Assembly (NCBI GenBank): GCA_030424845.1
Contig: JAUHWC010000002.1
Span: 434,001-498,000, forward strand
DNA from: Alphaproteobacteria bacterium
GTDB lineage: Bacteria; Pseudomonadota; Alphaproteobacteria; Sphingomonadales; Sphingomonadaceae
Reading direction: 5' to 3'
DNA length: 64,000 nt
Under the pieces are notes generated by a model. That model had not been told where the DNA came from. It worked only from the letters and a program-made list of their open reading frames with translations, and searched no databases. Position 1 is the stretch's first letter; each line of letters begins with the position of its first letter. The position numbers were made by a program, and so were the translations under genes. Positions 44,103 through 64,000 of the stretch are shown in pieces.

Positions 44103-44179
<77 letters not shown>

Positions 44180-44327
44180 CTTAAGCTATTGATGTATAAC
44201 GTTTTATAAAAACGATCTTCTGCAAGAATGCATAAAAATGTGCATTTTCGCTATGCACAAAACGTGCACAAAGCTGTGTCCTTCCCCGTAAACCCTGATT
44301 AGGCTGGTTTCATAGAGGGGAGCCGCA
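44180..44327 (+). other. AT-rich integrase leader with repeated TGCAY motifs, likely att region
   Basis: Base composition drops sharply in GC just after the tRNA. Within 44228-44275 the motif occurs repeatedly in both orientations: aTGCATaaaaa, gTGCATtttc, aTGCACaaaa, gTGCACaaag. Such repeats near a tRNA 3' end resemble arm-type integrase sites. I found no second copy of the tRNA 3' end in the window. Confidence 0.4.
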
Positions 44328-46687: not shown

Positions 46688-48312
46688 GCCGCAAACCTAT
46701 CCGCTGTGCGATCTATACCCGCAAGAGCTCGGGTGAAGGGCTTGATCAGAGCTTTAACAGCCTTGATGCCCAGCGCGAGGCTGGCGAAGCCTATGTGAAG
46801 AGCCAGACCCATGAAGGCTGGAAGGTCATTTCCACGCTCTACGACGACGGCGGGTATTCCGGCGGGACCATGGAGCGCCCTGCCCTTCAGCGGCTGCTCG
46901 ACGATGTTGATGCCGGCCTCATTGATGTCGTGGTGGTTTACAAGATCGATCGCCTGACCCGTTCGCTGCCGGATTTTGCAAGGATCGTCGAATGCTTTGA
47001 TGCCAAGGACGTCAGCTTCGTCTCAGTCACCCAGTCGTTTAACACGACCTCGTCGATGGGCCGGCTCACGCTTTGTGTCCTTCTGTCATTCGCCCAGTTC
47101 GAGCGCGAAGTGACCGGCGAGCGTATCCGCGACAAGATCGCAGCCTCCAAGGCCAAGGGCATGTGGATGGGCGGCAATCTGCCGCTGGGTTATGATTTGC
47201 CTGCTCCAGGCACCCGCACGCTCCAGGTCAACGAGGAAGAAGCAAACACGGTCCGTCAAATCTTCGCACGCTATCTCAAGCTCGGCTCGGTCCATGCCCT
47301 GCAGCGCGAACTTGACAAGCAAGGCATCCGTTCCAAGGAATGGGTCAGCAGCAAGGGTAGGAACGTGGGCGGGCTTCCCTTCAGCCGCGGGGCCCTGTTC
47401 CATCTCTTGAGGAACCCAGTTTATCTGGGATGCATCAGGCACAAGGATGTCATTCACCGAGGCGAGCATCAGGCGATCATCGAACAGGGCCTGTTTGATG
47501 AGGTGCAGGAGCAGCTCGATCGCAATGCACGGCGCCACAAGGCAGCACCCGAACGCAAGGCAGCCGAGGCCCCACTCACCGGCAGGCTCTTCGATGCCGC
47601 TGGTGAGGTGATGAGCCCGAGCTTCTCGCAAGGGTGCAGCGGGCGCCTCTATCGCTACTATGTCTCCGCATCGCTCCAGCAAGGAGGGTCGCAGAGCGAT
47701 GATGGCATCATCCAGCGCATCTCGGCGCCTGCAATCGAGAAGCTGGTGATCGAAATCTTGGAACGGCTGCTGCCCAAGACCAATAACGCTCTCGACCAAC
47801 TGCACGCCATTCACCTGCACACGGAACGTCTGCTGATCGATCTTCCGGCGCACACCGGCAAGGATCTTGTCTCGAAGCTAACGGATGACGAAGAGATCAT
47901 CTTCACCAACACATCGATCACCCGCATCGCCATTCCAGTCCAGTTGCCGCTGCGCGGCGGCAAGCGCCTGATCATCGCTGGCGCCTCACATCAGGCCCGG
48001 CCCGATCCAACGCTGATCGCGGCACTGAGGAAAGCTCATCGCCTGGTGCGGCGCGAGCGCGGACAACCAACTATCGATACAGCACCACGCTCACCCTATG
48101 ATCGCAGGATCCTCAGGCTTGCCTTCCTTGCCCCCGATCTCCAGCGCGACATCCTGAAAGGCCTTCAGCCGCCATCGCTCAATCTCGAACGGCTGCAGAA
48201 GCTGGTCATTCCGCTGGGCTGGAAGGAGCAGCGCAAGGCGCTCGGTTGGCTGCGAAACTGTCGCTCCGAATTGCCGCCAGGCCTTCCCTGTTCTGCGAAA
48301 ATGTTTCCCTGA
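46684..48312 (+). CDS. Large serine recombinase
   Basis: This 542-residue protein has a resolvase domain with the catalytic serine (S15) in IYTRKSSGEG, then SLDAQREAGEAYV, YDDGGYSGGTMERPALQRLL, VVVYKIDRLTRS and ERIRDKIAASKAKGMWMGGNLPLGY. A recombinase domain follows to about residue 300, and a helical C-terminus (DLQRDILKGLQPPSLNLERLQKLVIPLGWKEQRKALGWL). Large serine recombinases integrate or excise DNA without host factors. The stop codon lies inside the first TTTCCCTG repeat. Confidence 0.92.
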   Translation: MSRKPIRCAIYTRKSSGEGLDQSFNSLDAQREAGEAYVKSQTHEGWKVISTLYDDGGYSGGTMERPALQRLLDDVDAGLIDVVVVYKIDRLTRSLPDFARIVECFDAKDVSFVSVTQSFNTTSSMGRLTLCVLLSFAQFEREVTGERIRDKIAASKAKGMWMGGNLPLGYDLPAPGTRTLQVNEEEANTVRQIFARYLKLGSVHALQRELDKQGIRSKEWVSSKGRNVGGLPFSRGALFHLLRNPVYLGCIRHKDVIHRGEHQAIIEQGLFDEVQEQLDRNARRHKAAPERKAAEAPLTGRLFDAAGEVMSPSFSQGCSGRLYRYYVSASLQQGGSQSDDGIIQRISAPAIEKLVIEILERLLPKTNNALDQLHAIHLHTERLLIDLPAHTGKDLVSKLTDDEEIIFTNTSITRIAIPVQLPLRGGKRLIIAGASHQARPDPTLIAALRKAHRLVRRERGQPTIDTAPRSPYDRRILRLAFLAPDLQRDILKGLQPPSLNLERLQKLVIPLGWKEQRKALGWLRNCRSELPPGLPCSAKMFP

Positions 48313-49661: not shown

Positions 49662-52058
49662 CTAGTAGCGGGCCTGGACGCGTACGCCGAAGGTACGCGG
49701 ATCGGGCGAGTAGATACGAATGCCGTCGAGGATCGGATCGACACCATAGACCGCTGCCTTGTCGGTCAGGTTCTCGATGAAGACACCAAAGTCGAACGGG
49801 CCGCTGCGCAGGCCTGCACTCACACCGATGAGCAAGAACTCGGGCAGTTCGGTGTTAAACGAGTTCATATCGTTGAAGCTGCTCGTGCTCGAGCTGCGAT
49901 AGTTGAAGTCGCTTTGCAGGTAGAAGTCGATCCCGCTGCGCAGTTCGCCTTCGTAGGAAGCGGCGCCGGCAAAGGTCCAGCGCGGCACCCTGGGCAGGCG
50001 ATCGCCGTCGAAGCCGAAGGTTCCGGCCGCGAGTACTTCCGGATCGAGATCCGCGGCCAGCTTCGCATCGGTATAGGTCACGCCGCCCGACAGGCTCAGG
50101 CCCATATCCGAGACATAGCGCAGCAGCACTTCCGCGCCGCGAATACGCGTCTTGCCGGCGTTGAGCGTGTAGGTGAAGGCACCGGAAGGATCGCTGGCGA
50201 CAACCTGCTGGTTCGACCAGTCCATCTGGTAGATTGAGGTGTCGAGGAAGAGATCGCGGTCGATCAGATAGACCTTGGCACCAAGCTCGTAGCTCCACAG
50301 GTCGTCCGAACCGAAGGAGAGCGGAATGTCCACGCCGGCCTGGTTGGCCAGCTGCTGGGCATTGTTATTGCCGCCTACGCGGAAGCCGGATGCCACACGG
50401 GCGAAGAAGCTGACGTCGGGCGTGGCTTCCCACAGCAGCGAGAAATTGTAGCTGGGGCTGTCCTCAGTCGATTCATCGTCCTGGATATTATAAGGAATTG
50501 TAAGCAGGCCGTTGGCCGCCCAGCTCGGCACAGGCACCGGAACCGCGAAATCGGGCGGGCCGGCAATATCCTGCACCTGCAGGCCCCAGTCGGTGATCTT
50601 GGCCTTGTAGTAGCGGATACCGGCGGTTGCGGTAAGCGAATCGGTAACCTCGAAATCGGCCTGGCCGTAGATTGCCCATTGCTTGACCTGGCGCTCAAAC
50701 TCGGTCTGGTAGATGAAGTCCGGACGCGGCACGCCCGGAGCGACGAAGCCCGGCTCGCGAAGGCCGGCAGCTTCGCAGGCAGCGATCGAACGACAGGCAT
50801 TCACGCCGGTAATGTCGTTGGCACGGATAGCTGCCAGGATGTCGTAGGACTTGTCATCCTGGTAATAGGCGCCGGCGACGAACTGGAACGGTCCAGGCAG
50901 GCTGGAGGCAAAGCGCAGCTCTGCCGTGTAGTCACGGAAGCTGACATCCTGTTCCAGGACCGTCTTGAACGGCTGCAGGTTGAAGGCCGAAGCCAGGGTA
51001 AGGCCGGTCTGGGTACTGTCGTAGCCAGCCACCGTATCCTGCTTGCCATACGAACCGATCAGGCTGAACGTGCCGAATTCGACATCGTATTCAGCAGTTG
51101 CGGAATATCCCTGATATTCATCCCGCAGGGGCGACACCGTCGGGCTCGATGAAACATAGGGACCGTCACCCAGAGTCCAGTATTGGACGTCGTCGACTTC
51201 CGCGACCTGCGCAGTCGCCTGGATGAGCAGGGTGAATTCCGGGGTCGGCTCGAACATCAGCGAGAAGCGTCCGCCCCAGACTTCGCGGTCGTTGACGTCT
51301 TCGACAAGGAAGGACGAAGAACCGTCAAGCGTCGTGATCTGGTGGTCGATATAGCCACCGCCCCATTCTCCCCAGCCGACGAAACGCGCCGCCAGCACGT
51401 CCGAGAGCGGCACGTTGAGGAAAGCATCGGCCTTGTACAGGTTCCCGCCGCCCTCGATCGTCGCAAGGGTTGCCGAACCGCCAGCCTCGACCATGTCGAA
51501 CTGGGGCTTGTTGGTGATGATGCGCAGCGTGCCGGCCATGGAGCCGGAACCGAACAGCGTGCCCTGCGGGCCCTTCAGCACTTCGATGCGCTCGATATCG
51601 TGCAGGCGGATACCCGGCGTGCCGTCGCCGGTCGATTCAGAACCGGCGGCGCCGAGCAGCGGCATTTCATCAAGGTAGAAGCCCGTGGTCGAGCCGATAT
51701 CGGAAACGATGCCGCGAATGATGAACTGGTTCTTGGAAACGCCTTCGTTATTGACGACGAGGGCGGGCTCGAGGCGTGTCAGGCTCTGGATATCGCTGAC
51801 GGCGTACCGATCGAGGCTTTCACCAGTCGTGACGGCCACCGCAACCGGCGTGTCCTGCACAGAGGCGGACCTGCGCGTAGCGGTGACGACGATGTCTCCG
51901 TCATCGGTCTCGGAAGGCGTGGCAACCGCTTCGTCGGAAGGCGGCGTGGTATCCTGCGCTTGAGCCGTCGCAGATGCGAGGGCAAACGTACTGACACCAA
52001 GCGCGACCGCAGCGCGACGGAATGTAACGCGGCCTGCAAACAATTTTCCGAAATTCAT
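49662..52058 (-). CDS. TonB-dependent outer-membrane receptor 1
   Basis: This 798-residue receptor has a signal peptide (ALGVSTFALASATAQAQ), a TonB box (DGDIVVTATRRSA), a plug domain to about residue 170 (PVAVAVTTGESLDRYAVSDIQSL, FIIRGIVSDIGSTTGFYLDEMPLLG, IEVLKGPQGTLFGSGSMAGTLRIITNKP), then a 22-strand barrel ending PDPRTFGVRVQARY. It is closely similar along its length to receptor 2 at 57930-60293. ATG 52058 has the ribosome site gaaggg; a GTG at 52067 is possible. Iron is not implied; carbon-substrate uptake fits the context. Confidence 0.95.
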   Translation of the reverse strand: MNFGKLFAGRVTFRRAAVALGVSTFALASATAQAQDTTPPSDEAVATPSETDDGDIVVTATRRSASVQDTPVAVAVTTGESLDRYAVSDIQSLTRLEPALVVNNEGVSKNQFIIRGIVSDIGSTTGFYLDEMPLLGAAGSESTGDGTPGIRLHDIERIEVLKGPQGTLFGSGSMAGTLRIITNKPQFDMVEAGGSATLATIEGGGNLYKADAFLNVPLSDVLAARFVGWGEWGGGYIDHQITTLDGSSSFLVEDVNDREVWGGRFSLMFEPTPEFTLLIQATAQVAEVDDVQYWTLGDGPYVSSSPTVSPLRDEYQGYSATAEYDVEFGTFSLIGSYGKQDTVAGYDSTQTGLTLASAFNLQPFKTVLEQDVSFRDYTAELRFASSLPGPFQFVAGAYYQDDKSYDILAAIRANDITGVNACRSIAACEAAGLREPGFVAPGVPRPDFIYQTEFERQVKQWAIYGQADFEVTDSLTATAGIRYYKAKITDWGLQVQDIAGPPDFAVPVPVPSWAANGLLTIPYNIQDDESTEDSPSYNFSLLWEATPDVSFFARVASGFRVGGNNNAQQLANQAGVDIPLSFGSDDLWSYELGAKVYLIDRDLFLDTSIYQMDWSNQQVVASDPSGAFTYTLNAGKTRIRGAEVLLRYVSDMGLSLSGGVTYTDAKLAADLDPEVLAAGTFGFDGDRLPRVPRWTFAGAASYEGELRSGIDFYLQSDFNYRSSSTSSFNDMNSFNTELPEFLLIGVSAGLRSGPFDFGVFIENLTDKAAVYGVDPILDGIRIYSPDPRTFGVRVQARY

Positions 52059-52235
52059 CAAATTCACCCTTCTCTATCACGGGAACTGTGACAGACGATG
52101 GGCCGTCTTGAACTTTGCGGGCTCGTTTGAACGATGCCTCCGCAACCTGAACGACCCAGCGACCTATTTTTCGCTTTCGAGACATCCTCCTGCATGTGCG
52201 AGGATTTGCTATCCCAATCTCATTGTCAAGTCTTT

Positions 52236-52246
52236 TTGTCCGACAA
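52236..52246. promoter_or_regulatory. TTGTCCGACAA operator upstream of receptor 1
   Basis: A perfect 11-bp palindrome (TTGTC-C-GACAA) lies in the 207-bp gap between the reductase stop and the receptor 1 start, about 180 bp ahead of the receptor's ATG. The same sequence occurs at 60639-60649. It fits the TnGTnnnACnA pattern of FadR/VanR-type GntR regulators. Confidence 0.6.
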
Positions 52247-52265
52247 TTATGAAGTGGATTGTCGG

Positions 52266-53513
52266 CTACGCTGCATGTTCGAGCGGCATCACTTTTAGCG
52301 GCTTGTCGGCGTTGGCTAATTCGTCTGCCGTGAGGCGTACTCGCGCCTCCACCAGCTTCTTGCCCTGGACGTAATCCTTCACCGAATTGACGCAGTCCAG
52401 GCAACGGACTTCGCCATTCCTCAAATAGACGACCGAGAAGCTGCCGCTGGCCGGATCGCCGCGGACAACTGCTTGGTCATGGCCAGCGGACAAGCCCACC
52501 GTCTGCAGCCTGATGTCATACTGGTTGGACCAGAACCACGGGACGCTGACATAGGGTTCGGGCCGCCCGCAAATAGCCTTGGCGGCTGTGAGCGCCATAT
52601 CGTTGGCATTCTGCACGCTTTCGAGCCGGATCACGGCGCCATCTGCGTAGGGATTTGGGTGCGCGGCACAGTCGCCGATTGCATAGATATTTGGTAGACT
52701 TGTGCGGCAGAATTGGTCGACGATGACGCCATTGCCGGTAGCAACCCCTGCCTCTTCAACCGGGCCGGTGGCAGGCACGATGCCGATCCCCACGATCACC
52801 ATGTCGCAAGGCAGGACCTCACCATCGACGAGCCGAACTCCGGCAACCTTGCCCGCCTCGCCCTCGAGACATTCGACGGTCGAACCGGTGCGCAGGTCGA
52901 CACCCTCCGCGCGGTGCTTCGCTTCGATGAAGCGCGAGATATCTTCGCCCGCGACACGGGCCAGAACGCGATCGAGCGCCTCGAGCAGCACGACTTCGCA
53001 GCCGCGCGCCGCCAGGACTGCAGCTGCCTCGAGCCCGATATAGCCACCGCCGATCACGACGACCTGGCTTGCGCCACTTTCGAGCTCGTCGCGAATGCGG
53101 TCCACCTCGGATTTTTCACGTACGACATGCACGCCAGCGAGATCCGCCCCGCTACAGGTGAGGCTGCGGGGCGAGCCGCCCGTTGCCCAGATGAGGTCGC
53201 CATATTCGACGCAGGTCCCGTCAGCGAGCTTCACGGATTTCGCTTGTGCATCGATCGCGGTGACAGCTTGTCCAAGCAGCAGCGTGATTTCCTTGTCGGC
53301 CCAGAACTTCTCGGGCCGCAGCATGATCCGCTCGAAGGTCTTTTCGCCCTGCAGATAGTCCTTGGACAGCGGGGGCCGCTCATAGGGAGGGACCGCTTCG
53401 CTGCCGATGATCGCGATGCTGCCGGTGAATTTCTGCTGCCTGAGCGCGACCGCCGCCTGGGCGCCGCCATGTCCGGCACCGACGATTACGACATCGAATT
53501 TGCTGGCAGGCAT
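52266..53513 (-). CDS. FAD-dependent ferredoxin reductase of a Rieske oxygenase system
   Basis: This 415-residue protein passes electrons from NAD(P)H to ferredoxin. It has an FAD site ([18 protein letters not shown]), [12 protein letters not shown], a second dinucleotide fold ([18 protein letters not shown]), [12 protein letters not shown] and a reductase C-terminal domain ([19 protein letters not shown]). This is the BphA4/rubredoxin-reductase-like class. Start ATG 53513; the frame extends to 53555. It is divergent from the stand-alone Rieske gene and the only reductase in the island, so it may serve both oxygenases. Confidence 0.93.
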
Positions 53514-53576
53514 AGTTTCGTTTCGACCCGGCTTGTTTGCGACTGACCATTGCACGGCTTGTGCTATTGGGTACGA

Positions 53577-53619
53577 TTGTCAGACAAACGGATAGCCTGT
53601 CAACCATATTGTCTGACAT
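53577..53619. promoter_or_regulatory. Paired TTGTC-N-GACAA operators in the divergent reductase/Rieske promoter region
   Basis: TTGTCAGACAA (53577-53587, perfect) and TTGTCTGACAT (53609-53619, 10 of 11) are centred 32 bp apart, about three helical turns, so they face the same side of DNA. A half-site (TTGTCT) follows at 53635-53640. The position between divergent genes lets one repressor control both. Confidence 0.65.
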
Positions 53620-53686
53620 TTTCGCTTGTCCTTTTTGTCTGTGCGTGTTTTCATTTCACCTGATCAGGACAGATTCGGGGGAATGA

Positions 53687-54856
53687 ATGGACAAGCCAGC
53701 CCAAGCGAAGACCAGCCTTGCCTATGCATTGGATGCGATCAGCCGGATGGCAGCCCAGCCGGACGAAGCCGCCCATGCGGCGGACCCTGCAATCTACACC
53801 TCCGAGGCACTGCTCGACCACGAGCAGGAGCAGATCTTCGACCATGAATGGGCCTGTGTCGGCCGGGCGGACGAACTCCCCAATCGCGGCGACTACATGA
53901 CCACCATGGTCGGTCGCACGCCGGTGATCGTCAATCGTCGCAAGGACGGTTCGCTGGGTGCCATGGCCAATATCTGCGCCCATCGCCTGGCCGCCGTTGC
54001 CGAAGGTCGCGGCAATATGCCGCGCTTCGTCTGCCCCTATCACGCGTGGACCTATGAAGAAGACGGGCGCCTGCTCGGCGCACCGCACATGCCGAAGGAT
54101 TTCGACAAGAAGGCGTGCGGTCTCGATCCGCTCGCGCTCGAAATCTGGAACGGATACATTTACATCAATCCCGATCCCGATGCTGCGCCCCTCGCCGACC
54201 GGCTCGAACCTCTCACCGCCCTGTTTCGCAATTATCGCCTTGGCGACATGCGGATCATGCACAAGGCAACCGAGGTGTGGGAAGGAAACTGGAAGGTCGC
54301 GACCGAGAATTTCATCGAATCCTACCACCTCACCGTGGTGCACGCGCAAAGCATCGGCCACCTTGCGCCGATGCAGGCCATTTCCATGGCGGAAGAAGGC
54401 CCCGGCTATGCCTTTCACCGCGTGCAGGCACCGCCCGAATTCATCCAGTCCATGCCGGGATCATTGCAGAAGCCCAATCCCGATATCAGCGACGAGGAAC
54501 GGATGACGATCTATGCCGGATGCGTCTTTCCCAACCACCTCTTCACCGTGCAGCACGACCAGGTGACCTGGATGCGGACCCAGCCCATTTCCACCGACAA
54601 GACACTGATCGAATGGGGCATTGCCGGCGCCTATGACTGGCCCGGAGACGAGCCCGATCCGGAGCACCCGGAATTCTACTACATGCGCGAAATGCCGCAT
54701 GTGAACGCGGAAGACCGGGCGGTCGTCGCATCGGTCCAGATCGGCGCGAAGTCAGGGCGCAAACTACCGGGCAGGCTGCACCCGGTGGAGCATGGCATCC
54801 TCACCTTCGCGCGTTATCTCGATACGCGCCTGCGCGGACCGGAAAACACGCTTTGA
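53687..54856 (+). CDS. Rieske non-heme iron oxygenase, alpha-type subunit
   Basis: This 389-residue protein has a Rieske cluster bound by C97, H99 (ICAHR), C116 and H119 (FVCPYHAW). The catalytic iron site is in NWKVATENFIESYHLTVVHAQ (H214, H219). The length and NWKVATENFxESYH motif fit single-component, homotrimeric oxygenases; no beta subunit is beside it. It would hydroxylate or demethylate an aromatic or quaternary-amine-like substrate using electrons from the divergent reductase, possibly via the ferredoxin at 62610. The substrate is unknown. Confidence 0.93.
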   Translation: MDKPAQAKTSLAYALDAISRMAAQPDEAAHAADPAIYTSEALLDHEQEQIFDHEWACVGRADELPNRGDYMTTMVGRTPVIVNRRKDGSLGAMANICAHRLAAVAEGRGNMPRFVCPYHAWTYEEDGRLLGAPHMPKDFDKKACGLDPLALEIWNGYIYINPDPDAAPLADRLEPLTALFRNYRLGDMRIMHKATEVWEGNWKVATENFIESYHLTVVHAQSIGHLAPMQAISMAEEGPGYAFHRVQAPPEFIQSMPGSLQKPNPDISDEERMTIYAGCVFPNHLFTVQHDQVTWMRTQPISTDKTLIEWGIAGAYDWPGDEPDPEHPEFYYMREMPHVNAEDRAVVASVQIGAKSGRKLPGRLHPVEHGILTFARYLDTRLRGPENTL

Positions 54857-54877
54857 GCGACGCGATTGGCTTGATTG

Positions 54878-56257
54878 TCAGGTCAGGTCGTAACCGTAAC
54901 GGAACAGGTTTTCGGGATCGTAGCGGCGCTTGATTGCGCGCAGGCGAACCATATGTACGCCCTGTCCATAGGCCGCGCCTGCCCCGCCCTCTTCGCCGCT
55001 CATGTAATTGATATAGGCACCCGCGCTCATGACCGGCTCGAGCGCGGAATAGGTCTCGCGCACCCAGGCGATATTGTCCGCATCCTGTTCGGGCTCGTCC
55101 CACACGCCCAGCACGTTGAAGACAAACCGTGCCGATCGATGAGGAAAAGCCGTCTCATCCTCGGCCACGCGATCGATTGCGCTGCCAAGCGGCTGTAGCT
55201 CGATTGCCGAGCGCCAGCTTGGCGTTTTCGCAGCGGCATCGAGCAGAGACGCGATCACGTCACTATCGATGACAGACAGGAAACCGGACTTGGTCCAGGC
55301 CCTGATGCCGTGCGGCTGGATGTGATCGACGAAGCTTTGCAGGGCGACAAAGGGCAGAGCCATCTTGGCCTGCATCTCGCCGCCGATCCGCTCCAGAATG
55401 CCATCGACTACTGGCCCGCCTTCACCGTGGTCGCCGTGCCATTCGATCAAGGACATCACCACCGGCCTGCCCTGCAGCTCTTCCGGAATGTCGGGGAACC
55501 CTTCCGCAATGCGGAGATAACAGCTCCAGTTCAGTTCCTCCCTCGCATCGGCCATCACGTCCCGCCAGGTTTCCAGCGCCGGAGCCGCGATATCGAGGCT
55601 GTGCATGGCGATGCCGATCAGCGGCGGACCAACCGGATGCGCCTTGAAGGTGAATTCGGTGACCACGCCGAAATTGCCGCCACCGCCGCGCAAGGCCCAG
55701 AACAGGTCCGGCTCGTTCTCCGCATCGACGCGCAGCTTGCGGCCATCCGCCAGCACCACATCCATGCCCAGCATATTGTCCACGGTCAGGCCGAACTTGC
55801 GCATCAAATGGCCATAGCCGCCACCCAGCGCCAACCCTGCAACGCCGGTATGCGAAACCGCCCCGGCCGGTGTGGCGAGGCCATGTTCCTGTGTCGCGGC
55901 ATCGAGATCGCGCAGCAATGCCCCGCCCTCAACGCGCGCAGTGCCTGAGGCCGGATCGACCGAGATCGCCTTCATGTCTCCCAGATCGATTACCAGCCCG
56001 CCATCGCACAGGCTCAGCCCCGGCACGCTGTGACCGCCTCCCTTGGCCGTCACGCCAATACCCTGCTCACGCGCATATTCGAGCCCGGCCACGACGTCGT
56101 CTGCGGTGCGGCAGCGCAAGATCGCTCCCGGCCGCTTGTCGATCATGTCGTTCCACAATGTGCGATATTCGTCATATCCGGCATCGCCCGGCGCGCAGAC
56201 GACACCTTCCACCTTCGCCGCAAGGCTCTCCAACCCGGGCAATCCATCGTCAGTCAT
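54878..56257 (-). CDS. BBE-type FAD-linked oxidase
   Basis: This 459-residue protein has a PCMH-type FAD domain with the covalent-FAD histidine in VTAKGGGHSVPGLSL and VEGGALLRDLDAATQEHGL, then GVAGLALGGGYGHLMRKFGL; the C-terminal berberine-bridge motif is INYMSGEEGG...YGQGVHMVRLRAIKRRYDPENLFRYG. Relatives oxidise alcohols, sugars or alkaloids with release of hydrogen peroxide. The second, cysteinyl FAD link appears absent (Gly/Tyr there). It lies 13 bp downstream of the tannase-like gene, as an operon pair. Confidence 0.92.
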   Translation of the reverse strand: MTDDGLPGLESLAAKVEGVVCAPGDAGYDEYRTLWNDMIDKRPGAILRCRTADDVVAGLEYAREQGIGVTAKGGGHSVPGLSLCDGGLVIDLGDMKAISVDPASGTARVEGGALLRDLDAATQEHGLATPAGAVSHTGVAGLALGGGYGHLMRKFGLTVDNMLGMDVVLADGRKLRVDAENEPDLFWALRGGGGNFGVVTEFTFKAHPVGPPLIGIAMHSLDIAAPALETWRDVMADAREELNWSCYLRIAEGFPDIPEELQGRPVVMSLIEWHGDHGEGGPVVDGILERIGGEMQAKMALPFVALQSFVDHIQPHGIRAWTKSGFLSVIDSDVIASLLDAAAKTPSWRSAIELQPLGSAIDRVAEDETAFPHRSARFVFNVLGVWDEPEQDADNIAWVRETYSALEPVMSAGAYINYMSGEEGGAGAAYGQGVHMVRLRAIKRRYDPENLFRYGYDLT

Positions 56258-56270
56258 GTGATGTCCCCTG

Positions 56271-57851
56271 TCAGGCTTCGGGAGCCCAGAGCCAGTCGAG
56301 CCGATCGTCGGGCATTACGTCCGGCGTGAACGGATGCCAGTTCGCGGCATCATCGACATCGCCTTCGCCATTATACCGCGCCACGGTGGGATAGGCGTAG
56401 AGCGGGCGCGTGCGGCGCACCGTTTCGCCATCGTCTCCCAGCTGCGTAGCAATCACGCCCTGCGGCGCTTCGCCAGCTTCGACCCAGGCGATTATCTCGG
56501 GCAGGAATTCGAAGGTGTTCGGCGCATCGCCGCCGCGGCAGTGATGCATGCCCGAGAGCATGAAGATGCGGAACCAATCCTGGGTTGCAGGAATGCCTCC
56601 GCTCGCTGCCGCAACCTGACCGTAATAGTCGAGCATGCCTTCGGGCGGAACGCCGGGATCGGCCCAGCCGTGATAGGCGATCAGCTTGCCGCCTGCCGCG
56701 TGGAATTCGGACAGATCGGGGGCAGTGCCCGGTACAACGGGATCGTAGAGTGCGGCCTGCGCGCGGATAAGCTCGGGATCGGTATCCCAATCGAAATCGC
56801 GATAGTAGAAGTCCGGGCGTGGTGCATCGAAGGCAAGGTATTTGAGGAAGCCTGCCGCGATCGAACGGCGGTTATATCCGTCCCAGGCCAGCTCGCTGCC
56901 ATAGGGCGATGCACCCGGCGCCAGAGCCACCCCGTCGCTATTGTGGGGGCCGCGATAGAGCGCGATTGCCGTGGCCACCTGTGCTGCGGTCAGGCAGTCG
57001 GCATTGTCTTCCCCGGCAGCGCAGGCAATCGTCTGCGGATCGAAGCTGCAGCGGCGCGGATCCTCGATGATGCCGTCCACCAGCGTATCGAGACCATCGC
57101 ATTCGGCCAGCACCGCCTGATTGAGCAGGACCAGCTTTTCATCGGAGAAGACCGGTTGGTCATTGTCGTCGAGCAGGTGGTTGGCATCCCAATTGTTGGC
57201 GATAGCACCCAGGCGGCCGGGAAAGGCCGGATCGCCAGCGATGATGCCATCGAAATCTTCCGGGTGATGCTGCGCTTCGTAGAGCGCTTCGCGGCCACCG
57301 GTCGAGCAGCCACGGAAATAGCTATAGGCCGGATCGACGCCGTAATAGGCGGCAATGATCGCCTTGGAGGCGACGGCGGTTACATGGGTCGAACGACCTC
57401 CGTAATCCTCGCGCAATTCCTCGACACCGCCCCACAGCGCGTCGCGCCAGAAATGGCCGACATGACCCATATTGTTGGCCGCGACGGCAAAGCCCTGTTG
57501 CTGGGCATCCATGCAGCGTTCGATCTGGATCATGCCGCACAGGCCGCCGCAGCCGGTCTGGAAGAAGCGGCCGTTCCACGTCGTCGTGGGCAGATTCAGC
57601 TGGAAGCCGACCTGCGGCGCGACATAGCCGGAAACAGCGCAATGTTCTTCCAGTCCGTCACCGGCGGCGACCAGCTCTGCCGAGGTAATCGAAGTCGGGG
57701 CACCGGGAATGTCGATAAAGCTCATCTCCGCCAGGGCGGAACATTCGATTGCCGCCGAGAGGTTTGCGGCGACGGCGGCGTCTTGCGCCCGCGCCGACTG
57801 AGAAGGTGCAAGGGCGGCCATGACAAGCGACGCGAAAAGGAAAAAGCGCAT
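56271..57851 (-). CDS. Tannase/feruloyl-esterase family protein, secreted
   Basis: This 526-residue protein has a signal peptide (cleavage near SARAQDAA). The catalytic core follows the tannase pattern with a disulfide-linked serine: RGCSTGGREAL (C182-S183), the Asp loop AYHGWADPGVPP and the His-Cys pair GMHHCRGG. These enzymes split gallate, ferulate or other aromatic esters outside the cell. Several further Cys pairs are present, as is usual. It is between receptor 2 and the BBE oxidase, suggesting that an ester is hydrolysed before or after import. Confidence 0.9.
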   Translation of the reverse strand: MRFFLFASLVMAALAPSQSARAQDAAVAANLSAAIECSALAEMSFIDIPGAPTSITSAELVAAGDGLEEHCAVSGYVAPQVGFQLNLPTTTWNGRFFQTGCGGLCGMIQIERCMDAQQQGFAVAANNMGHVGHFWRDALWGGVEELREDYGGRSTHVTAVASKAIIAAYYGVDPAYSYFRGCSTGGREALYEAQHHPEDFDGIIAGDPAFPGRLGAIANNWDANHLLDDNDQPVFSDEKLVLLNQAVLAECDGLDTLVDGIIEDPRRCSFDPQTIACAAGEDNADCLTAAQVATAIALYRGPHNSDGVALAPGASPYGSELAWDGYNRRSIAAGFLKYLAFDAPRPDFYYRDFDWDTDPELIRAQAALYDPVVPGTAPDLSEFHAAGGKLIAYHGWADPGVPPEGMLDYYGQVAAASGGIPATQDWFRIFMLSGMHHCRGGDAPNTFEFLPEIIAWVEAGEAPQGVIATQLGDDGETVRRTRPLYAYPTVARYNGEGDVDDAANWHPFTPDVMPDDRLDWLWAPEA

Positions 57852-57887
57852 GGAACAGGCTTCCTTTGAGAATGTGCCGAAACATGA

Positions 57888-57923
57888 AAAGGGCCGCTGC
57901 AGGTTTGTCCCGCAGCGGCCCTT
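57888..57923 (-). terminator. Strong hairpin after receptor 2
   Basis: AAGGGCCGCTGC (57889-57900) and GCAGCGGCCCTT (57912-57923) are perfect 12-bp arms; on the minus strand TTTTC follows. It lies 6 bp past the receptor 2 stop and just before the tannase-like gene, which has only 37 bp of remaining upstream space. Partial read-through from the receptor promoter may feed tannase-BBE. Confidence 0.75.
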
Positions 57924-57929
57924 CAGGAC

Positions 57930-60293
57930 TTAGAAGTGGGCCGAAACCTTGGCGCCTATTGTGCGCGGGTTGGCCGAATAGACCCTGATCCCGTCAGGCG
58001 AGGCATCGAAGCCGTAAACGGCAACTTCATTGGTCAGGTTGCGCACAAACAGGCTCACATCGATATTGTCGATGATGAAGCCGAGCTGGGCGCCCAGCAG
58101 CGTCGAAGCATCCAACGTCTGATTGAACGCGTTCTGATCGTTGAAGCTGTACGTGCTGCTGCTGCGATGGCTGATATCGCCCTGCACATACATGTCGACG
58201 CTATTGCTGACGGGCGTGTCGTAGCGGACCTGCGCCGCCGCAGTCCAACGCGGAACGCGCGGGATTCGATCGCCATCAAAGCCGATCGTGCCGGCATCGA
58301 TGATCTGCTGGTCGAGATCCTCGGTTAGCTTGGCATCGGTGTAAGTCAGGCCGCCGCCGAAGCTCAGGCCCATTCCGGTATTGTAGGTGATCTGCAGCTC
58401 GGCACCCTGGATACGGGTATCACCGGCATTGATGATATATTCGAATGCACCACTCGGATCCGTTGCTGCGAGCGGCTGGTTGGACCAGTCCATCTGATAG
58501 ATCGAAGTGTCGATATAGATACGACGGTCGGCCAGATAGGCCTTCATGCCTAGCTCGTAACTCCAGATCTTGTCCGAGTCATAGGCATCGGGAATGGTGA
58601 TGTTGGTCTGGTTGGCAAAGGCGGCTGCATTATTTACGCCGCCAACACGGAAGCCGGACGCTGCACGCGCAAAGAAGCTGAGATCGGGCGTAGCTTCGTA
58701 AAGCAGCGAGAAATTATAGCTCGGGCTGCTTTCCGAAGCGGTTTCGTCCATCGTCACATAGGGCGTGGTGATCAGGCCATTCGCTGCCCAGCTGGGCACG
58801 GGAACCGGCACAGCAAAGTCGGGCGGGCCGGCAATATCCTGGATAGTAGTCTGCAGATCGCTGACGGTGGCATCGAAATAGCGGATACCGGCCGTAGCGG
58901 TCAGACGTTCGGTGAGCTCGACATCGACCTGGCCGTAAAGCGCCCACTGCTCGATGTCGCGCAACGTGTTGACGGCATAGATGAGGTCTGCGGCCGGGAC
59001 ACCCGGAGCGGAGAAGCCCGACGGGCGCAGTCCCTTGGCTTCACAATCGGCAACCGAGTTGCAGTCGATCGTTCCGGTCACGTCATTCGCGCGGACGGCG
59101 ATGAGAGTGAAGTCGGTATCGTCTGCCTGATAATAGCCGCCGACCACAAACTGGACAGGTCCTTCCAGGGTCGAGGTAAAGCGCAGCTCCGCCGTATAGG
59201 CTTCGTAATCCTGAGAACTCTGCAACAGGGTTTTGAACGGCATCAGGTTGAAGGCCGCCGAAAGACCAAGTCCGGTCGGCGTGCTGTCTTCGCCATCAAC
59301 CAGCTTGTGGTTGGCATAAGACCCGATTGCCGTGATCGTACCGACGTTGGTGTCGTATTCGACGGTAGCGCTCACGAGATCGAAATTATCGCCATAGCTT
59401 TCAACAGTCGGTGAAGTGGAAATGTAGGGCCCGGCTCCCTGGCTCCAGCTTTCGCTACCCGCTACGTCGACTTCCTGGTGGGTAGCGCTCAGCAGAATCG
59501 AGAATTCGGGTACCGGCTCGAACAGGGCAGACACACGTACACCCCAGACATCTCGCTCGTTGACGTCTTCATTGACCGTGGTGGTCAGGCCATCCAGCGT
59601 GGTGATGGCATGATCGATAAAGGCACCGCCGGTTTCACCCCAGGCCACGGTACGGATGGCGAACTGCTCGCCCAGAGGCAGGTTAAAATAAACATCGCCT
59701 TCCAGGATTTCATCGCCTTCGTCGATGAAACCAACGGAAGCGCTGCCTCCACCTTCGACCAAGTCGAGGTCGGGTTTGTTGGTAATGATACGCAACGTGC
59801 CGGCCATGGAGCCGGAGCCGAACAGTGTGCCCTGCGGTCCCTTGAGCACCTCGATACGGTTTATGTCGTGCAGGCGGACACCCGGGCGGCCGTCGCCGGC
59901 ACCCTCATAGGCGCTGCTGCCAGTCAGCGGAATTTCGTCGAGGTAAAGACCGGTGGTCGAACCGATATCCGAGAGGATACCGCGAATGACGAACTGGTTG
60001 CTGGCCACACCCTGGTTGTTGACCACGAGCGAAGGCTCGATCTTGGTCAGGTCCTGCAGCGACTGAATGGAATTGCGCTCCAAAGCTTCGCCGGATGTGA
60101 CCGAGACGGAGAGCGGCGTATCCTGGAGGTCTGTGTCGCGCCGGCTGGCCGACACGACGATCACATCCGAGGAGTCAGCGGTTGATTCAGCTTCGACCTC
60201 TTGCGCAGCCACGGGCGTGGCAATGGAGACGGCCGTCAGACTGATGCCGAGGAGGCATGTAGTCCTGATGTTCTTGCCATGGAAAAACCGCAT
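57930..60293 (-). CDS. TonB-dependent outer-membrane receptor 2
   Basis: This 787-residue receptor has a signal peptide (SLTAVSIATPVAAQ), a TonB box (SDVIVVSASRRD), a plug with FVIRGILSDIGSTTGLYLDEIPLTG and IEVLKGPQGTLFGSGSMAGTLRIITNKPDLD, and a barrel ending ANPRTIGAKVSAHF. Long stretches match receptor 1 residue for residue (for example in the plug and around YNFSLLYEATPDLSFFARAASGFRVGG), so the two are recent paralogues. Differences in extracellular loops may give related but distinct substrates. Confidence 0.95.
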   Translation of the reverse strand: MRFFHGKNIRTTCLLGISLTAVSIATPVAAQEVEAESTADSSDVIVVSASRRDTDLQDTPLSVSVTSGEALERNSIQSLQDLTKIEPSLVVNNQGVASNQFVIRGILSDIGSTTGLYLDEIPLTGSSAYEGAGDGRPGVRLHDINRIEVLKGPQGTLFGSGSMAGTLRIITNKPDLDLVEGGGSASVGFIDEGDEILEGDVYFNLPLGEQFAIRTVAWGETGGAFIDHAITTLDGLTTTVNEDVNERDVWGVRVSALFEPVPEFSILLSATHQEVDVAGSESWSQGAGPYISTSPTVESYGDNFDLVSATVEYDTNVGTITAIGSYANHKLVDGEDSTPTGLGLSAAFNLMPFKTLLQSSQDYEAYTAELRFTSTLEGPVQFVVGGYYQADDTDFTLIAVRANDVTGTIDCNSVADCEAKGLRPSGFSAPGVPAADLIYAVNTLRDIEQWALYGQVDVELTERLTATAGIRYFDATVSDLQTTIQDIAGPPDFAVPVPVPSWAANGLITTPYVTMDETASESSPSYNFSLLYEATPDLSFFARAASGFRVGGVNNAAAFANQTNITIPDAYDSDKIWSYELGMKAYLADRRIYIDTSIYQMDWSNQPLAATDPSGAFEYIINAGDTRIQGAELQITYNTGMGLSFGGGLTYTDAKLTEDLDQQIIDAGTIGFDGDRIPRVPRWTAAAQVRYDTPVSNSVDMYVQGDISHRSSSTYSFNDQNAFNQTLDASTLLGAQLGFIIDNIDVSLFVRNLTNEVAVYGFDASPDGIRVYSANPRTIGAKVSAHF

Positions 60294-60481
60294 ACGTCTT
60301 GATCCCTCAAATATGGTTCACGCTCTCCCTTGGCGAGCACCAGGATCATTCATATCGCGATGGAACAGGAACCGTTCCCGACCGGAACTGGCCGGGGTGG
60401 TTGACCCCGCAATCTGATCCTAGGCGACTTTGCCGCTCCGTTGATCAAGATTTGCCAAAGCCGGTCCGTTGTCAATATATT

Positions 60482-60649
60482 TCGTCGGACAATATTGTAG
60501 TGTGCGATTCATGTCACGGTGAGGGCTTAGCGATCTGTAAAATAACATTTTCTGCGACACGTCCGGGGAACGCGCCGACCACTTATCCGCAGGCCAATTC
60601 CCTGCTTGACACCTGATGCCGCAACCTTAATGTCATTTTTGTCCGACAA
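60482..60649. promoter_or_regulatory. Two TTGTC-N-GACAA operators in the receptor 2 / HTH-SDR promoter region
   Basis: TCGTCGGACAA (60482-60492, 10 of 11) and TTGTCCGACAA (60639-60649, perfect) lie in the 372-bp divergent gap 60294-60665, which holds no other gene. The second ends 16 bp before the GTG of the HTH gene, over its likely start site. A further half-site TTGTCAATA starts at 60469. Confidence 0.6.
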
Positions 60650-60665
60650 TCTTGAAGGGTTCGCA

Positions 60666-60941
60666 GTGAACGACAACAGGCAAGAAGATTTGGCCCGCCA
60701 GTCTCTCGGAAGGGCGCTGGAAGATAGCGAACTAGCTCTGGCTGAAGCGCTCAGCGATATCTTTGGCACGGGTCAGCATGACCTCGCCAAAGTGGCCGAG
60801 GCGCTGCAGGAACGCGGCGTGGCTCGCCCGTCGGGCGAAAGCGGCGTATGGTCGCTGTCCGTGCTCGAAGAGGAGCTCGCCGCCATCAACGCTTCACTGG
60901 ACGCGGCCCACGAGCAGGGTGGCATTACGCGCCTCGCCTGA
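60666..60941 (+). CDS. Small recombinase-like helix-turn-helix protein
   Basis: GTG 60666, preceded by gaaggg, gives 91 residues; ATG 60630 in the same frame would place the operator inside the gene. Residues 28-75 (LSDIFGTGQHDLAKVAEALQERGVARPSGESGVWSLSVLEEELAAIN) resemble the HTH that follows the catalytic domain of serine recombinases (ALQERGV...W...L). There is no catalytic domain. Such small proteins occur next to Rieske and dehydrogenase genes in sphingomonads; the role is unknown. The SDR gene starts 14 bp later. Confidence 0.65.
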   Translation: MNDNRQEDLARQSLGRALEDSELALAEALSDIFGTGQHDLAKVAEALQERGVARPSGESGVWSLSVLEEELAAINASLDAAHEQGGITRLA

Positions 60942-60955
60942 AGGGAGTGCCCTGC

Positions 60956-61711
60956 ATGGTCGACCTGACCGGTCGCAAGATCGTTGTTACCGGCGCCGCA
61001 CGCGGCGTCGGCCTCGCCATCACCCAACGCTGTGTCGAGGCGGGTGCCGAAATCATCATTGCCGATATTCTCGAAGATGAGGGCGCTAAGGCCGCCGCCG
61101 AACTCACCACGAAGGGCAATGGCTCATGCCGCTTCGTCCCGGTAGACCTTGGCGACCCCCAATCAATCGAGGCCATGGCTGGCGATATCGCCGCCAATGA
61201 AGGCACGATTCACGGGCTGGTGAACAATGCTGCCATCGCCACAAATGTCGGCGGCAGGCCATTCGAGGAAATCGATATCGACTTGTGGGACAAGGTCATG
61301 CAGGTCAATATTCGCGGTACCTGGCTGGTCAGCCGTTCACTGTCTCCGCTGCTCGAGGATGGCTCGGGTCGCGTGGTCAACATGGCCTCTGACACTGCCT
61401 TGTGGGGGCCGACCAACCTGCTCGCATATGTCGCCAGCAAGGGCGCCGTGATCTCGATGACCCGCTCGATGGCGCGCGAGCTCGGCCCGCGCAAGATCGG
61501 CGTGGTAGCGCTGGCGCCGGGCATCATGAAGAACGAAGCGACCGATTACGTTCCGGCACAAAGGCACACTGAGTACGAAACACGCCGGGCCGTGCAGGGT
61601 CCGCAATATCCCGAGGATATTGTCGATGTGGTGGCCTTTGCCCTCACCCAGGGAGCCCTGCCCCTGACCGGTCAGGTAATTCCGACCGATGCAGGGTTCT
61701 GGTTCAAGTAA
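60956..61711 (+). CDS. Short-chain dehydrogenase/reductase
   Basis: This 251-residue classical SDR has the cofactor motif VTGAARGVGLAI (TGxxxGxG), an acidic residue in IIADILED suggesting NAD(H), NNAAIAT, catalytic serine region NMASDTALWGP, YVASK (Tyr-xxx-Lys) and a C-terminus typical of the family. It may oxidise a hydroxylated or cis-diol intermediate formed by the Rieske enzymes. It shares an operon with the small HTH gene, behind the TTGTCCGACAA operator. Confidence 0.93.
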   Translation: MVDLTGRKIVVTGAARGVGLAITQRCVEAGAEIIIADILEDEGAKAAAELTTKGNGSCRFVPVDLGDPQSIEAMAGDIAANEGTIHGLVNNAAIATNVGGRPFEEIDIDLWDKVMQVNIRGTWLVSRSLSPLLEDGSGRVVNMASDTALWGPTNLLAYVASKGAVISMTRSMARELGPRKIGVVALAPGIMKNEATDYVPAQRHTEYETRRAVQGPQYPEDIVDVVAFALTQGALPLTGQVIPTDAGFWFK

Positions 61712-61723
61712 CCCTAGGCTGGC

Positions 61724-62584
61724 TCAGCTGCGAAACCAGTCGGTGATTTCGCTGCCCGTTGCCATCCATACATCGTCATGCCCGGTGATATGCCCCAGCG
61801 CGCGATCAAGCGCCCGAGCGCGGAACGGGTGGCCGATCAGGAAGGGATGGACTGCGATCGACATGATGCGCGGGCTCTTGTCGCCTTCCTCGTAAAGCTG
61901 GTCGAACTGGTCGATCAGGATCCGGGTGAAATCATCCGCCGTGCCGCCATGCTGCAGGAAGATCGGAATATCGCCAATCTCGAGCGTGTACGGCAGTGCG
62001 AGAATGTCACCGGCCTTGGTCGTGATCTCGTAAGGCAGCTCGTCATTCGACCAGTCGCAGACATAGTCGATGCCAGCTTCGGCGAGGATATCGAGCGTGT
62101 TGTCCGTCTCGGTCAAGGCCGGCCCAAGCCAGCCGCGCGGGCGCGTGCCAGTGCTCTTCTCGATCGTATCGATCACGTGACCGACCAGCGGCTTCTCGTC
62201 GTCCGGACCCATGCCGGTAAACAGCATGGAATTGTTCGGCCCATGCGCCATCCATTCCCAGCCAGCCTTGCTGCCGGCCTCGACGATTTGCGGATATTGT
62301 TCGCACACATCCGAATTGAGCGCCGCAGTGACCGAGACACCATGCTTGGCCAGTACATCCATCAGGCGCCAAACACCCACGCGGGCACCGTAGTCTCGCC
62401 AGGAATAATTGAGTACGTCGGGCGAGAGGCTCGCCGTCATCGGGGTCATCGCCATGCCTGGCTGCTTCCACTGGAAATGCTCGATATTGGGCGAGATCCA
62501 CAGCCCGACCCGGGCATTGCCGGGAAGCGGTTTTGCCGGTCGGTCGACAATCGGCGAATAAACGAAACGGCCATGATCCATCAT
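61724..62584 (-). CDS. Polysaccharide deacetylase-like (PuuE/allantoinase-type) enzyme
   Basis: This 286-residue NodB-fold protein has no signal peptide. It shows DYGARVGVWRLMDVLAKHGVSVTAALNSDVCEQYPQIVE, EWMAHGPNNSM, TRPRGWLGPALTETDNTLDILAEAGIDYVCDW and SIAVHPFLIGHPFR. Cytosolic members of this branch act on small amides rather than polysaccharides. It is the last gene of the minus-strand operon alpha-beta-ferredoxin-deacetylase, so it probably hydrolyses a C-N or ester bond in the same pathway. Confidence 0.85.
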   Translation of the reverse strand: MMDHGRFVYSPIVDRPAKPLPGNARVGLWISPNIEHFQWKQPGMAMTPMTASLSPDVLNYSWRDYGARVGVWRLMDVLAKHGVSVTAALNSDVCEQYPQIVEAGSKAGWEWMAHGPNNSMLFTGMGPDDEKPLVGHVIDTIEKSTGTRPRGWLGPALTETDNTLDILAEAGIDYVCDWSNDELPYEITTKAGDILALPYTLEIGDIPIFLQHGGTADDFTRILIDQFDQLYEEGDKSPRIMSIAVHPFLIGHPFRARALDRALGHITGHDDVWMATGSEITDWFRS

Positions 62585-62609
62585 GCGAACGATCCTCTTT
62601 CCTTGCGTC

Positions 62610-62849
62610 TCAGTCTTTCTTCTTTTTCACCGGCGGGAAGATCTGCCCGTCGGCATCGCCGATCGTGATCACGCGATAGGGACAGCTCTTCGCCGCGCGG
62701 ACGAGCATCTTGTCGTCCTCGGTGGCGTCCGGGTCTCCCAAGACGACCTTGTTCTCCTCGTCGAGCGAAAATGTGTCCGGTGCCCAGTGCGCGCATTTGC
62801 CATAGCCCTGGCATTTCTCGCGCTCGACGGTGATCGTGTATTTGCTCAT
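62610..62849 (-). CDS. [3Fe-4S]-type ferredoxin of the Rieske system
   Basis: This 79-residue ferredoxin has the cysteines C13 and C19 (CQGYGKC, C-x5-C) and C56 (SCPYRVI), the three-ligand pattern of [3Fe-4S] ferredoxins used by cytochromes P450 and some ring-hydroxylating oxygenases. The central Cys of a 4Fe site is replaced by Tyr/Gly. It lies 10 bp after the beta subunit gene and should carry electrons to the oxygenase. The C-terminus is lysine-rich. Confidence 0.92.
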   Translation of the reverse strand: MSKYTITVEREKCQGYGKCAHWAPDTFSLDEENKVVLGDPDATEDDKMLVRAAKSCPYRVITIGDADGQIFPPVKKKKD

Positions 62850-62859
62850 CGTACTTTCC

Positions 62860-63321
62860 TCAGATCAGGACCTGCAGCAGCGGCATTTCGCGGCGGCTGT
62901 TGATCAGCAGTACCTTCTTGCCAGCGATCCGGAACGTATCGCCTTCACGGCGCAGTTCGTGGAAGCTGCGGCCCATCCAGAATTGCTGATCGGCACTGCG
63001 GGCAATGCCGAGCATGAAGTTCGATTCCACCGAAACTTCATCGCCTTCGTCGCGTGTGACAGTGATGTTGGACACCAGCCGCCGCATCGCACCGCGCGTC
63101 TCCTCGACGGCCAGAACCGAGCCACTCTTGAGCCTGTCGACGCGCTGTTCGAGGCGGATGTAATCGTCATTGATGATCGAGACACGGCGGCTCAACCAAT
63201 CCTGATCGGGGTCTGCGGGCACCCAATAGGTCGATCCTTCGAGCCACAGTGCGAACCATTCATCATAGCGCGCTTCATCCATCAGTTGCGCTTCGTGATA
63301 GAGGAAGTGTTCGGGGGTCAC
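62860..63321 (-). CDS. Aromatic-ring-hydroxylating dioxygenase beta subunit
   Basis: This 153-residue NTF2-fold subunit has FLYHEAQLMDEARYDEWFALWLEGSTYWVP, RRVSIINDDYIRLEQRVDRL and RLVSNITVTRDEGDEVSVESNFML near the middle, with the C-terminal KKVLLINSRREMPLLQVLI. It packs with alpha subunits in an alpha3beta3 dioxygenase. It overlaps the alpha gene by 4 bp. It is structural rather than catalytic. Confidence 0.95.
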   Translation of the reverse strand: MTPEHFLYHEAQLMDEARYDEWFALWLEGSTYWVPADPDQDWLSRRVSIINDDYIRLEQRVDRLKSGSVLAVEETRGAMRRLVSNITVTRDEGDEVSVESNFMLGIARSADQQFWMGRSFHELRREGDTFRIAGKKVLLINSRREMPLLQVLI

Positions 63322-64000
63322 TTGGCATCTCCGTTCATCAGCGAGATGTAGTGGCGCCAGAAGCCGCGCAGGTGCGTCTCGTCCATCGTATGGCCTGACT
63401 TGCCGCCATCGGGCATGTCCTTTTCACGATGCTCGCCGCGGCCGATGAACAACCAGTCATCGCCTTCGGCATGCATGCCCACCTGGTTGCGCTCCATGAT
63501 CTCGACATCGTCGGGTGAGACGAATCCGGCCGATCCGAACATGAATTCATGGTCCGAAAGACGGTTGTCGTTGATCTCCTCGGGCACGCCCTTGAGCATG
63601 ACGGGGTAGTTGGCGCTGACCGTCTCATCCACGCTGATCGGCTGGACGGTGCGAATATGTGTCATGATGTAGATCATGTTGGGGAAGACGTAGAGCAACG
63701 GCGCCATCGTGCCGAGCATCTGCTCCGCCTTTTCCTCGCCGTAGCGGGCCTTCATCTGCTCCACATATTCCTTGCGCGCAGGCGAAGGTTCCCCCGGACG
63801 CTTGGCCAGTGGGGCACCGCGATAGTCTTCCACCATGTGACCACCCGGAAGCGAGCGGATCACGTCCGGGATTTCTTCCTCGTGCAGCGTGCTGACGTCG
63901 AGGCCCGATCGGCGCGCGAACAGCTCGAAGGCGATCTTGTGGATGAAGGGACCGTGATAGTCTCCCTCCATCGAGTTCTCGGGCATGTATTTCCAATTGC
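63318..64000 (-). CDS. Aromatic-ring-hydroxylating dioxygenase alpha subunit, C-terminal part (5' end outside the window)
   Basis: About 227 residues of the catalytic domain are present. The frame stays open to the window edge, so the N-terminal Rieske domain lies beyond it. The visible start NWKYMPENSMEGDYHGPFIHK holds the catalytic-iron ligands (His of DYHG and His of FIHK). The final block FWRHYISLMNG is typical of the family. It is the first visible gene of a four-gene operon with beta, ferredoxin and deacetylase-like genes. Confidence 0.92.
   Translation of the reverse strand, partial: NWKYMPENSMEGDYHGPFIHKIAFELFARRSGLDVSTLHEEEIPDVIRSLPGGHMVEDYRGAPLAKRPGEPSPARKEYVEQMKARYGEEKAEQMLGTMAPLLYVFPNMIYIMTHIRTVQPISVDETVSANYPVMLKGVPEEINDNRLSDHEFMFGSAGFVSPDDVEIMERNQVGMHAEGDDWLFIGRGEHREKDMPDGGKSGHTMDETHLRGFWRHYISLMNGDAK

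Follow-up and report, generated by a model that had tools for sequence, protein, structure and literature searches.

A predicted GntR-type operator shared by the gene groups of a tRNA-Arg degradation island in a sphingomonad

Genes for uptake and ring oxidation lie side by side in a 64,000-nucleotide stretch (the window) of contig JAUHWC010000002.1 from an alphaproteobacterium of the Sphingomonadaceae (assembly GCA_030424845.1), raising the question of whether a single regulator controls them and, if so, which one. The window corresponds to C9:434001-498000 in a genome of 2,833,544 bases and nine contigs; window coordinates equal C9 coordinates minus 434000. A first reading made from the letters alone (the sequence-only reading) had noted five copies of an 11-bp palindrome, TTGTC-N-GACAA, in promoter regions and proposed a shared operator marking a catabolic regulon. 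Our analysis supports this proposal and enlarges the regulon several times, to 16 operators and about 20 inferred promoters. The extended palindrome WTTGTCNGACAWW probably serves as the operator for a GntR regulator of the FCD type (FadR/VanR) whose gene lies on the same tRNA-Arg island; the best candidate is the protein designated here GntR2.

All five copies were found where they had been placed, the exact sequence TTGTCNGACAA at 52236, 53577, and 60639 and one-mismatch versions at 53609 (TTGTCTGACAT) and 60482 (TCGTCGGACAA). The window contains seven matches with at most one mismatch versus 0.98 expected, a number reached in none of 100 shuffles. The two additional copies, at 28778 and 61283, have one mismatch each and are coding, the former reading FSDK within an open frame and the latter lying inside a short-chain dehydrogenase (SDR) open reading frame (ORF). 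Genome-wide, TTGTCNGACAA occurs nine times, versus two for the reversed-pattern control, and seven of the nine copies fall within C9:486236-523070, a 37-kb part of the island. Of the other two, one is located in an MFS-transporter-like ORF (C1:2022) and one spans the start codon of an ORF resembling citrate synthase (C7:205056); both ORFs are named from translations. Exact matches are thus not spread equally over coding sequence or unrelated promoters. With one mismatch allowed, the genome-wide scan was uninformative, the signal being drowned (95 matches versus 87 for the reversed control). Among inverted repeats with 5-bp arms and spacers of 0 to 8, TTGTC-N-GACAA is the commonest in the 59-kb island, with seven copies versus five for the runner-up; the 44.3-kb flank has none, and 100 shuffles of the island gave a mean of 0.04 copies and a maximum of 1.

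Alignment of 14 island copies led to the consensus ATTGTCNGACAAT, the centre being mainly A or T. A leave-one-out scan over 103 kb placed 13 of the 14 copies above every unlisted position; the exception, C9:494482, was outscored by C9:533509 alone, which is likewise counted as an operator. Counting a place once whether it matches on a single strand or on both, the 13-mer WTTGTCNGACAWW is found exactly at 10 places in the genome, all of them in the island. Allowing one mismatch added 6 island places (113 per Mb) versus 26 elsewhere (9 per Mb), the scan totals being 31 forward and 34 reverse matches versus 7 and 9 for the reversed control. The resulting 16 predicted operators are distributed over 12 intergenic regions and precede 47 genes in all, with about 20 inferred promoters. 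None touches a gene in a coding sequence table made by hand with starts judged likely, in which the intergenic share of the stretch is 7.8%; if the longest ORFs are used instead, operators C9:494639, 514677, 518094, and 535817 overlap the first codons of a gene. The window copy at 60639 thus overlaps the longest possible ORF of a small helix-turn-helix (HTH) gene, yet it sits before the likely GTG start at 60666.

The sequence-only reading had further proposed that one missing regulator of the GntR family controls the sites. Three GntR-family genes are indeed present in the island, outside the window: GntR1 (C9:502450-503175), GntR2 (C9:512379-513182, 14 kb past the window end), and GntR3 (C9:533540-534244). 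Since two belong to the right subfamily, more than one regulator may be involved. GntR2 and GntR3 match the GntR domain (2.3e-15 and 4e-15) and the FCD domain (8.2e-18 and 7.4e-15) above the cut-offs, whereas GntR1 is HutC-like with a UTRA match below the Pfam cut-off. The operator fits the FadR/FCD consensus put forward by the sequence-only reading, since GT and AC are separated by the 3 nucleotides CNG: sites of the FadR subfamily usually have 3 (or 2) nucleotides at this place and HutC sites mostly 4 (PMC4494728). Arginine at position 28 is associated with preference for TGGT and avoidance of TTGT (PMC4494728); residue 28, numbered with the invariant Glu as position 27, is Ala in GntR2 and Gly in GntR3, so that the TTGT half-site is uncontradicted. 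The palindrome is also a known binding sequence. AlkR protects ATTGTCAGACAAT and requires R45 and R49 (PMC12042122, PDB 9ISW), and island site C9:514676 is this very 13-mer on the minus strand. The GntR regulator of L-2-hydroxyglutarate metabolism, LhgR, protects TAGTCTGACAA and also TTGTCTGACAA, the latter in the promoter of its own gene (PMC8206213). The recognition-helix arginines equivalent to R45 and R49 are kept in GntR2 (SRASLR) and GntR3 (SRGRVR), and GntR2 matches the AlkR chain over residues 16-111 only (E 1e-10). The GntR2 promoter contains one good and one weaker operator (C9:512254 and 512293). The quality of a single-sequence structure model of GntR2 (mean predicted local distance difference test score of 44.7) was insufficient for counting the C-terminal helices (six or seven, VanR versus FadR group). 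The C terminus of GntR2 has a Lys/Arg-rich tail of about 35 residues, absent from eight other regulators aligned over the whole ORF, which may add unspecific contact with DNA.

Relatives of the two FCD proteins were picked by hand: for GntR2, 9 of the 15 matches listed (1343 records matched), 3 genome loci, and 7 of the 25 matches listed for an Agrobacterium vitis protein (119 matched); for GntR3, 5 of the 15 matches listed (898 matched) and 3 genome loci. Among the 16 plasmid relatives of GntR2, seven show a site, allowing up to two mismatches, in the 260 bp upstream. Altogether, these relatives have 10 site matches, whereas the remainder of the same loci predicts about 1.9, a comparison that may favour AT-rich upstream DNA because the control is mostly coding DNA. 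Among seven relatives aligned with GntR2, all three that share its EAELC and PN(R/K)GP residues, from plasmids of A. vitis, Mesorhizobium, and Shinella, have a site, the upstream sequences being TCGTCAGACAA and TTGTCTGACGA, or TCGTCTGACAT; two others, with ERTLC or ERPLC, have TGGTATACCA upstream. In A. vitis, three sites are spaced by 32 and 31 bp, and the reductase/Rieske pair of the island is spaced by 32. These sites favour GntR2 as the putative binding protein, short of proof.

Besides the composition of that control, several observations weigh against this assignment or against a regulon confined to the island. Nine of the 16 plasmid relatives of GntR2 lack the site, four of them carrying TGGTATACCA, and one of the three genome relatives has it, with two mismatches. 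One-mismatch matches to WTTGTCNGACAWW outside the island (17 forward and 18 reverse) outnumber those of the reversed control (7 and 9), so that further weak sites elsewhere are possible. As island copies supplied the 13-mer, its confinement to the island is not a wholly independent test. A search for the regulon in other genomes found no second case. Of 249 family genomes scanned for the 11-mer, 181 have at least one exact match (range, 0 to 12). Four with high counts, G153 (12), G243 (12), G096 (8), and G203 (7), were rejected, as their sites are scattered, the closest pair being about 12 kb apart. Homologues of GntR2 and of GntR3 are themselves rare, each being found in 2 of the 249 family genomes at E 1e-30 and in 3 of 385 class genomes, counting the source genome, and a scan of named genomes with GntR2 gave two distant matches. 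Four plasmid loci sharing DUF2848 have no exact operator, a single one-mismatch copy being present in each of two of them; in two genome loci there is no operator with at most one mismatch. Finally, a one-mismatch site is present upstream in two of the eight GntR3-relative loci inspected, which would also suit GntR3, acting alone or sharing operators with GntR2. This alternative is possible but doubtful. GntR3 has the FCD domain and both arginines, and its gene lies behind an aldehyde dehydrogenase (ALDH) gene with an operator ahead (C9:535817), but no operator directly precedes the GntR3 gene itself, and the two sites in its relatives (TTGTCATACAA and TTGTAAGACAA) come from homologues with 31-32% identity and each miss part of the central TCNGA.

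It is improbable that GntR1 is the regulator. A perfect operator lies 19 bp upstream of its gene, the shortest distance between an exact operator and a regulator gene, but the FadR-like spacing of the operator disfavours a HutC/UTRA-like protein, and the UTRA match itself is weak by the Pfam threshold. Two TGTAC copies lie beside that operator (C9:503205-503241; L010:19205-19241), and GntR1 could have a site of its own there. A non-GntR protein, either the HTH_62 protein encoded at 60666 directly behind an operator or a chromosomal regulator of the MarR or TetR type, is a similarly remote candidate: the site is identical letter for letter to footprints of GntR proteins, and the restriction of exact 13-mers to the island favours an island-borne regulator. 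That the palindrome is a by-product of base composition or of TTGACA-like promoter boxes is highly improbable, for although TTGTCA resembles TTGACA and two sites read TTGACTGACAA, shuffles yield 0.04 exact copies, the 2.83-Mb genome has no exact 13-mer elsewhere, and separate TTGAC boxes stand at fixed distances from the palindrome.

Around the 16 operators, at distances of up to 70 bp, TTGAC occurs 16 times versus 3.1 expected. Exclusion of two occurrences inside the motif left 14 operator-box pairs, of which 12 fall at three distances from box start to operator centre; the reductase box is counted twice, once per operator, so that the 12 pairs comprise 11 distinct boxes. The +11/+12 class (n = 5) includes receptors 1 and 2, the reductase, MFS3, and the ferredoxin operon; the -19 to -21 class (n = 3) the second reductase site, the DHDPS-like operon, and ALDH1; and the -36 to -38 class (n = 4) the HTH-SDR pair, ALDH2, ALDH3, and Rieske 2. 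As these bins were picked after viewing the data, the fair version takes the best three 3-bp windows, which held 12 of the 14 pairs, a score reached in 0 of 5000 shifted controls; the single best window held 5 pairs, reached in 49 of 5000. A hexamer promoter scan of locus L010 showed no excess (6 found versus 6.0 expected), leaving the distance test as the informative one. Several promoters, such as those of Rieske 1, the alpha/beta hydrolase, and GntR2, have no correctly directed TTGAC box within 70 bp. With -35 and -10 regions assigned by eye, and -10 regions and start sites inferred, the seven pairs of the -19 to -21 and -36 to -38 classes fit repression by blocking of RNA polymerase, whereas the five +11/+12 pairs, in which the box closely follows the operator, could mean blocking or activation. 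One FCD regulator might have its sign set by operator position, repressing the enzyme operons in which the operator covers the -10 region or start (box preceding the operator centre by 19-21 or 36-38 bp) and activating or tuning receptors 1 and 2, the ferredoxin reductase, an MFS transporter, and the ferredoxin-oxygenase operon (centre 11-12 bp upstream of the box), although we regard this as rather unlikely. If it were true, uptake and electron supply would be controlled differently from ring oxidation.

For the binding protein, the sign of regulation, and the inducer, we infer the following model from the sites and their placement. Without inducer, a dimer of the regulator, probably GntR2, would grip both halves of the palindrome and silence about 20 promoters by covering the -10/start region or flanking the -35 box. 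A pathway intermediate would free the regulator, so that its own level would rise together with those of receptors, oxygenases, reductase, and transporters. The analysis offers a testable control map of an acquired degradation island, with one operator before almost every gene group, a named pair of candidate regulators, and operator positions from which the sign of control can be predicted. It may help to find the substrate through a search for the inducer, and it offers a compact sensor-operator pair.

Several known systems resemble this arrangement in part, as far as the excerpts of the reports cited here extend. The AlkR footprint equals the island consensus and AlkR represses an oxygenase gene, but its footprinted site is at alkB2, with other alkane genes also named as targets, and its inducer is an acyl-CoA (PMC12042122). 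LhgR, whose footprint TTGTCTGACAA matches the island operator, acts on two promoters in another pathway (PMC8206213). The VanR/FCD protein Atu1419 of Agrobacterium fabrum represses a species-specific aromatic-acid region through paired palindromes, but these read ATGTATACAT and three genes are repressed (PMC7797058). FadR of Escherichia coli, also of the GntR family, represses some operons and activates others (PMC3460868); it serves the fatty-acid metabolism of the host and involves no island. In the sphingomonad Sphingobium sp. SHPJ-2, the single repressor PheR acts on TonB receptors and ring oxidation, but it belongs to the IclR family and recognizes the core GCAACG (PMC13273656). Among the matches listed in the open-access literature (titles and abstract openings, most subscription journals being outside this scope), neither the island nor an FCD regulator with a comparable operator set in a single island was described. 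The palindrome itself is already known; what is new is its broad reach across the island and a testable position code relative to TTGAC boxes.

Features of the window and the 16 predicted operators. Positions are window coordinates unless marked C9.
Feature	Position	Strand	Remarks
tRNA-Arg(CCG)	44103..44179	+	putative left end of island
Integrase-like ORF	from 44328		after tRNA-Arg; tRNA and ORF span 44103-45548; named from translation
TonB-dependent receptor 1	49662..52067	-	PF00593, PF07715
TTGACA, -35-like box, receptor 1	52224..52229	-	starts 12 bp from centre of operator 52235..52247
Operator TTTGTCCGACAAT	52235..52247		ahead of receptor 1; exact 13-mer
Ferredoxin reductase, HcaD/AndAa-like	52266..53555	-	below NCBIfam cut-offs
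Operator ATTGTCAGACAAA	53576..53588		between reductase and Rieske oxygenase; exact 13-mer
TTGACA, -35-like box, reductase	53598..53603	-	between the two reductase operators
Operator ATTGTCTGACATT	53608..53620		32 bp from operator 53576..53588; exact 13-mer on + strand
Rieske oxygenase alpha subunit	53687..54856	+	PF00355, PF00848
Berberine-bridge-type FAD oxidase	54878..56257	-	PF01565, PF08031; inferred operon with receptor 2
Tannase/feruloyl-esterase family protein	56271..57851	-	PF07519
TonB-dependent receptor 2	57930..60293	-	TonB receptor models, below cut-offs
TTGACA, -35-like box, receptor 2	60470..60475	-	
Operator TTCGTCGGACAAT	60481..60493		ahead of receptor 2 operon; one mismatch to 13-mer
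TTGACA, -35-like box, HTH-SDR pair	60606..60611	+	operator downstream of presumed -10 region
Operator TTTGTCCGACAAT	60638..60650		ahead of small HTH gene and SDR; exact 13-mer
Small protein, recombinase-like HTH (HTH_62)	60666..60941	+	PF20552
Short-chain dehydrogenase	60956..61711	+	named from translation
Polysaccharide-deacetylase-like, ring-hydroxylating beta and alpha subunits	61724..63986	-	deacetylase PF01522; beta named from translation
16 operators, 11-mer starts	C9:486236, 487577, 487609, 494482, 494639, 500076, 500221, 503194, 512254, 512293, 514677, 518094, 521218, 523060, 533509, 535817		

Operons were inferred from strand and spacing, and the names of SDR1, SDR2, SDR4, the three MFS genes, the first beta subunit, and the cupin come from translations only. 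The units served would be receptor 1 with a D-glutamate-cyclase-like gene; the reductase; Rieske 1; receptor 2 with the tannase-like and FAD oxidase genes; HTH_62 with SDR; MFS with ring-hydroxylating alpha/beta and deacetylase-like genes; the alpha/beta hydrolase; GntR1 with an amidase; a TPP enzyme; a DHDPS-like, OCD, CMD, LigB-type dioxygenase, DUF2848, NMT1, cupin, and amidase operon; GntR2; aldehyde dehydrogenases; TauD; Rieske 2 and 3; ferredoxin with a second ring-hydroxylating pair; and ALDH3 with GntR3. The deacetylase-like and ring-hydroxylating genes at the window end would share an operon with an MFS-like gene (named from translation) located past the window, the operators being at C9:500076 and 500221. 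The 250-bp gap between CMD and LigB within their inferred operon has no operator. The pairing of an HTH gene with an SDR gene, as first described, is borne out by PF20552, the HTH_62 protein (60666-60941) standing beside the dehydrogenase. On plasmids of Caballeronia, Roseateles, and Thioclava, but not on a Bradyrhizobium plasmid, the cupin, amidase, and DUF2848 genes (L011:1925-5302) are again found together, accompanied by a 4-hydroxyphenylacetate-3-hydroxylase-like gene.

The degradation island is chromosomal and about 53-59 kb long. Similarity to two of the five sister genomes probed (G014 and G165) ends at the last tRNA base, 44179, except for one 125-bp G165 match at 46702-46823; the tRNA-Arg gene and the integrase-like ORF mark the putative left end of the inserted island. 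No same-strand 12-mer repeat shared with the tRNA end was found up to the contig end at C9:537269, and the right border may lie on another contig. A tRNA-Ser(GGA) gene is located near the contig end (L012:13705-13795), past the last operator.

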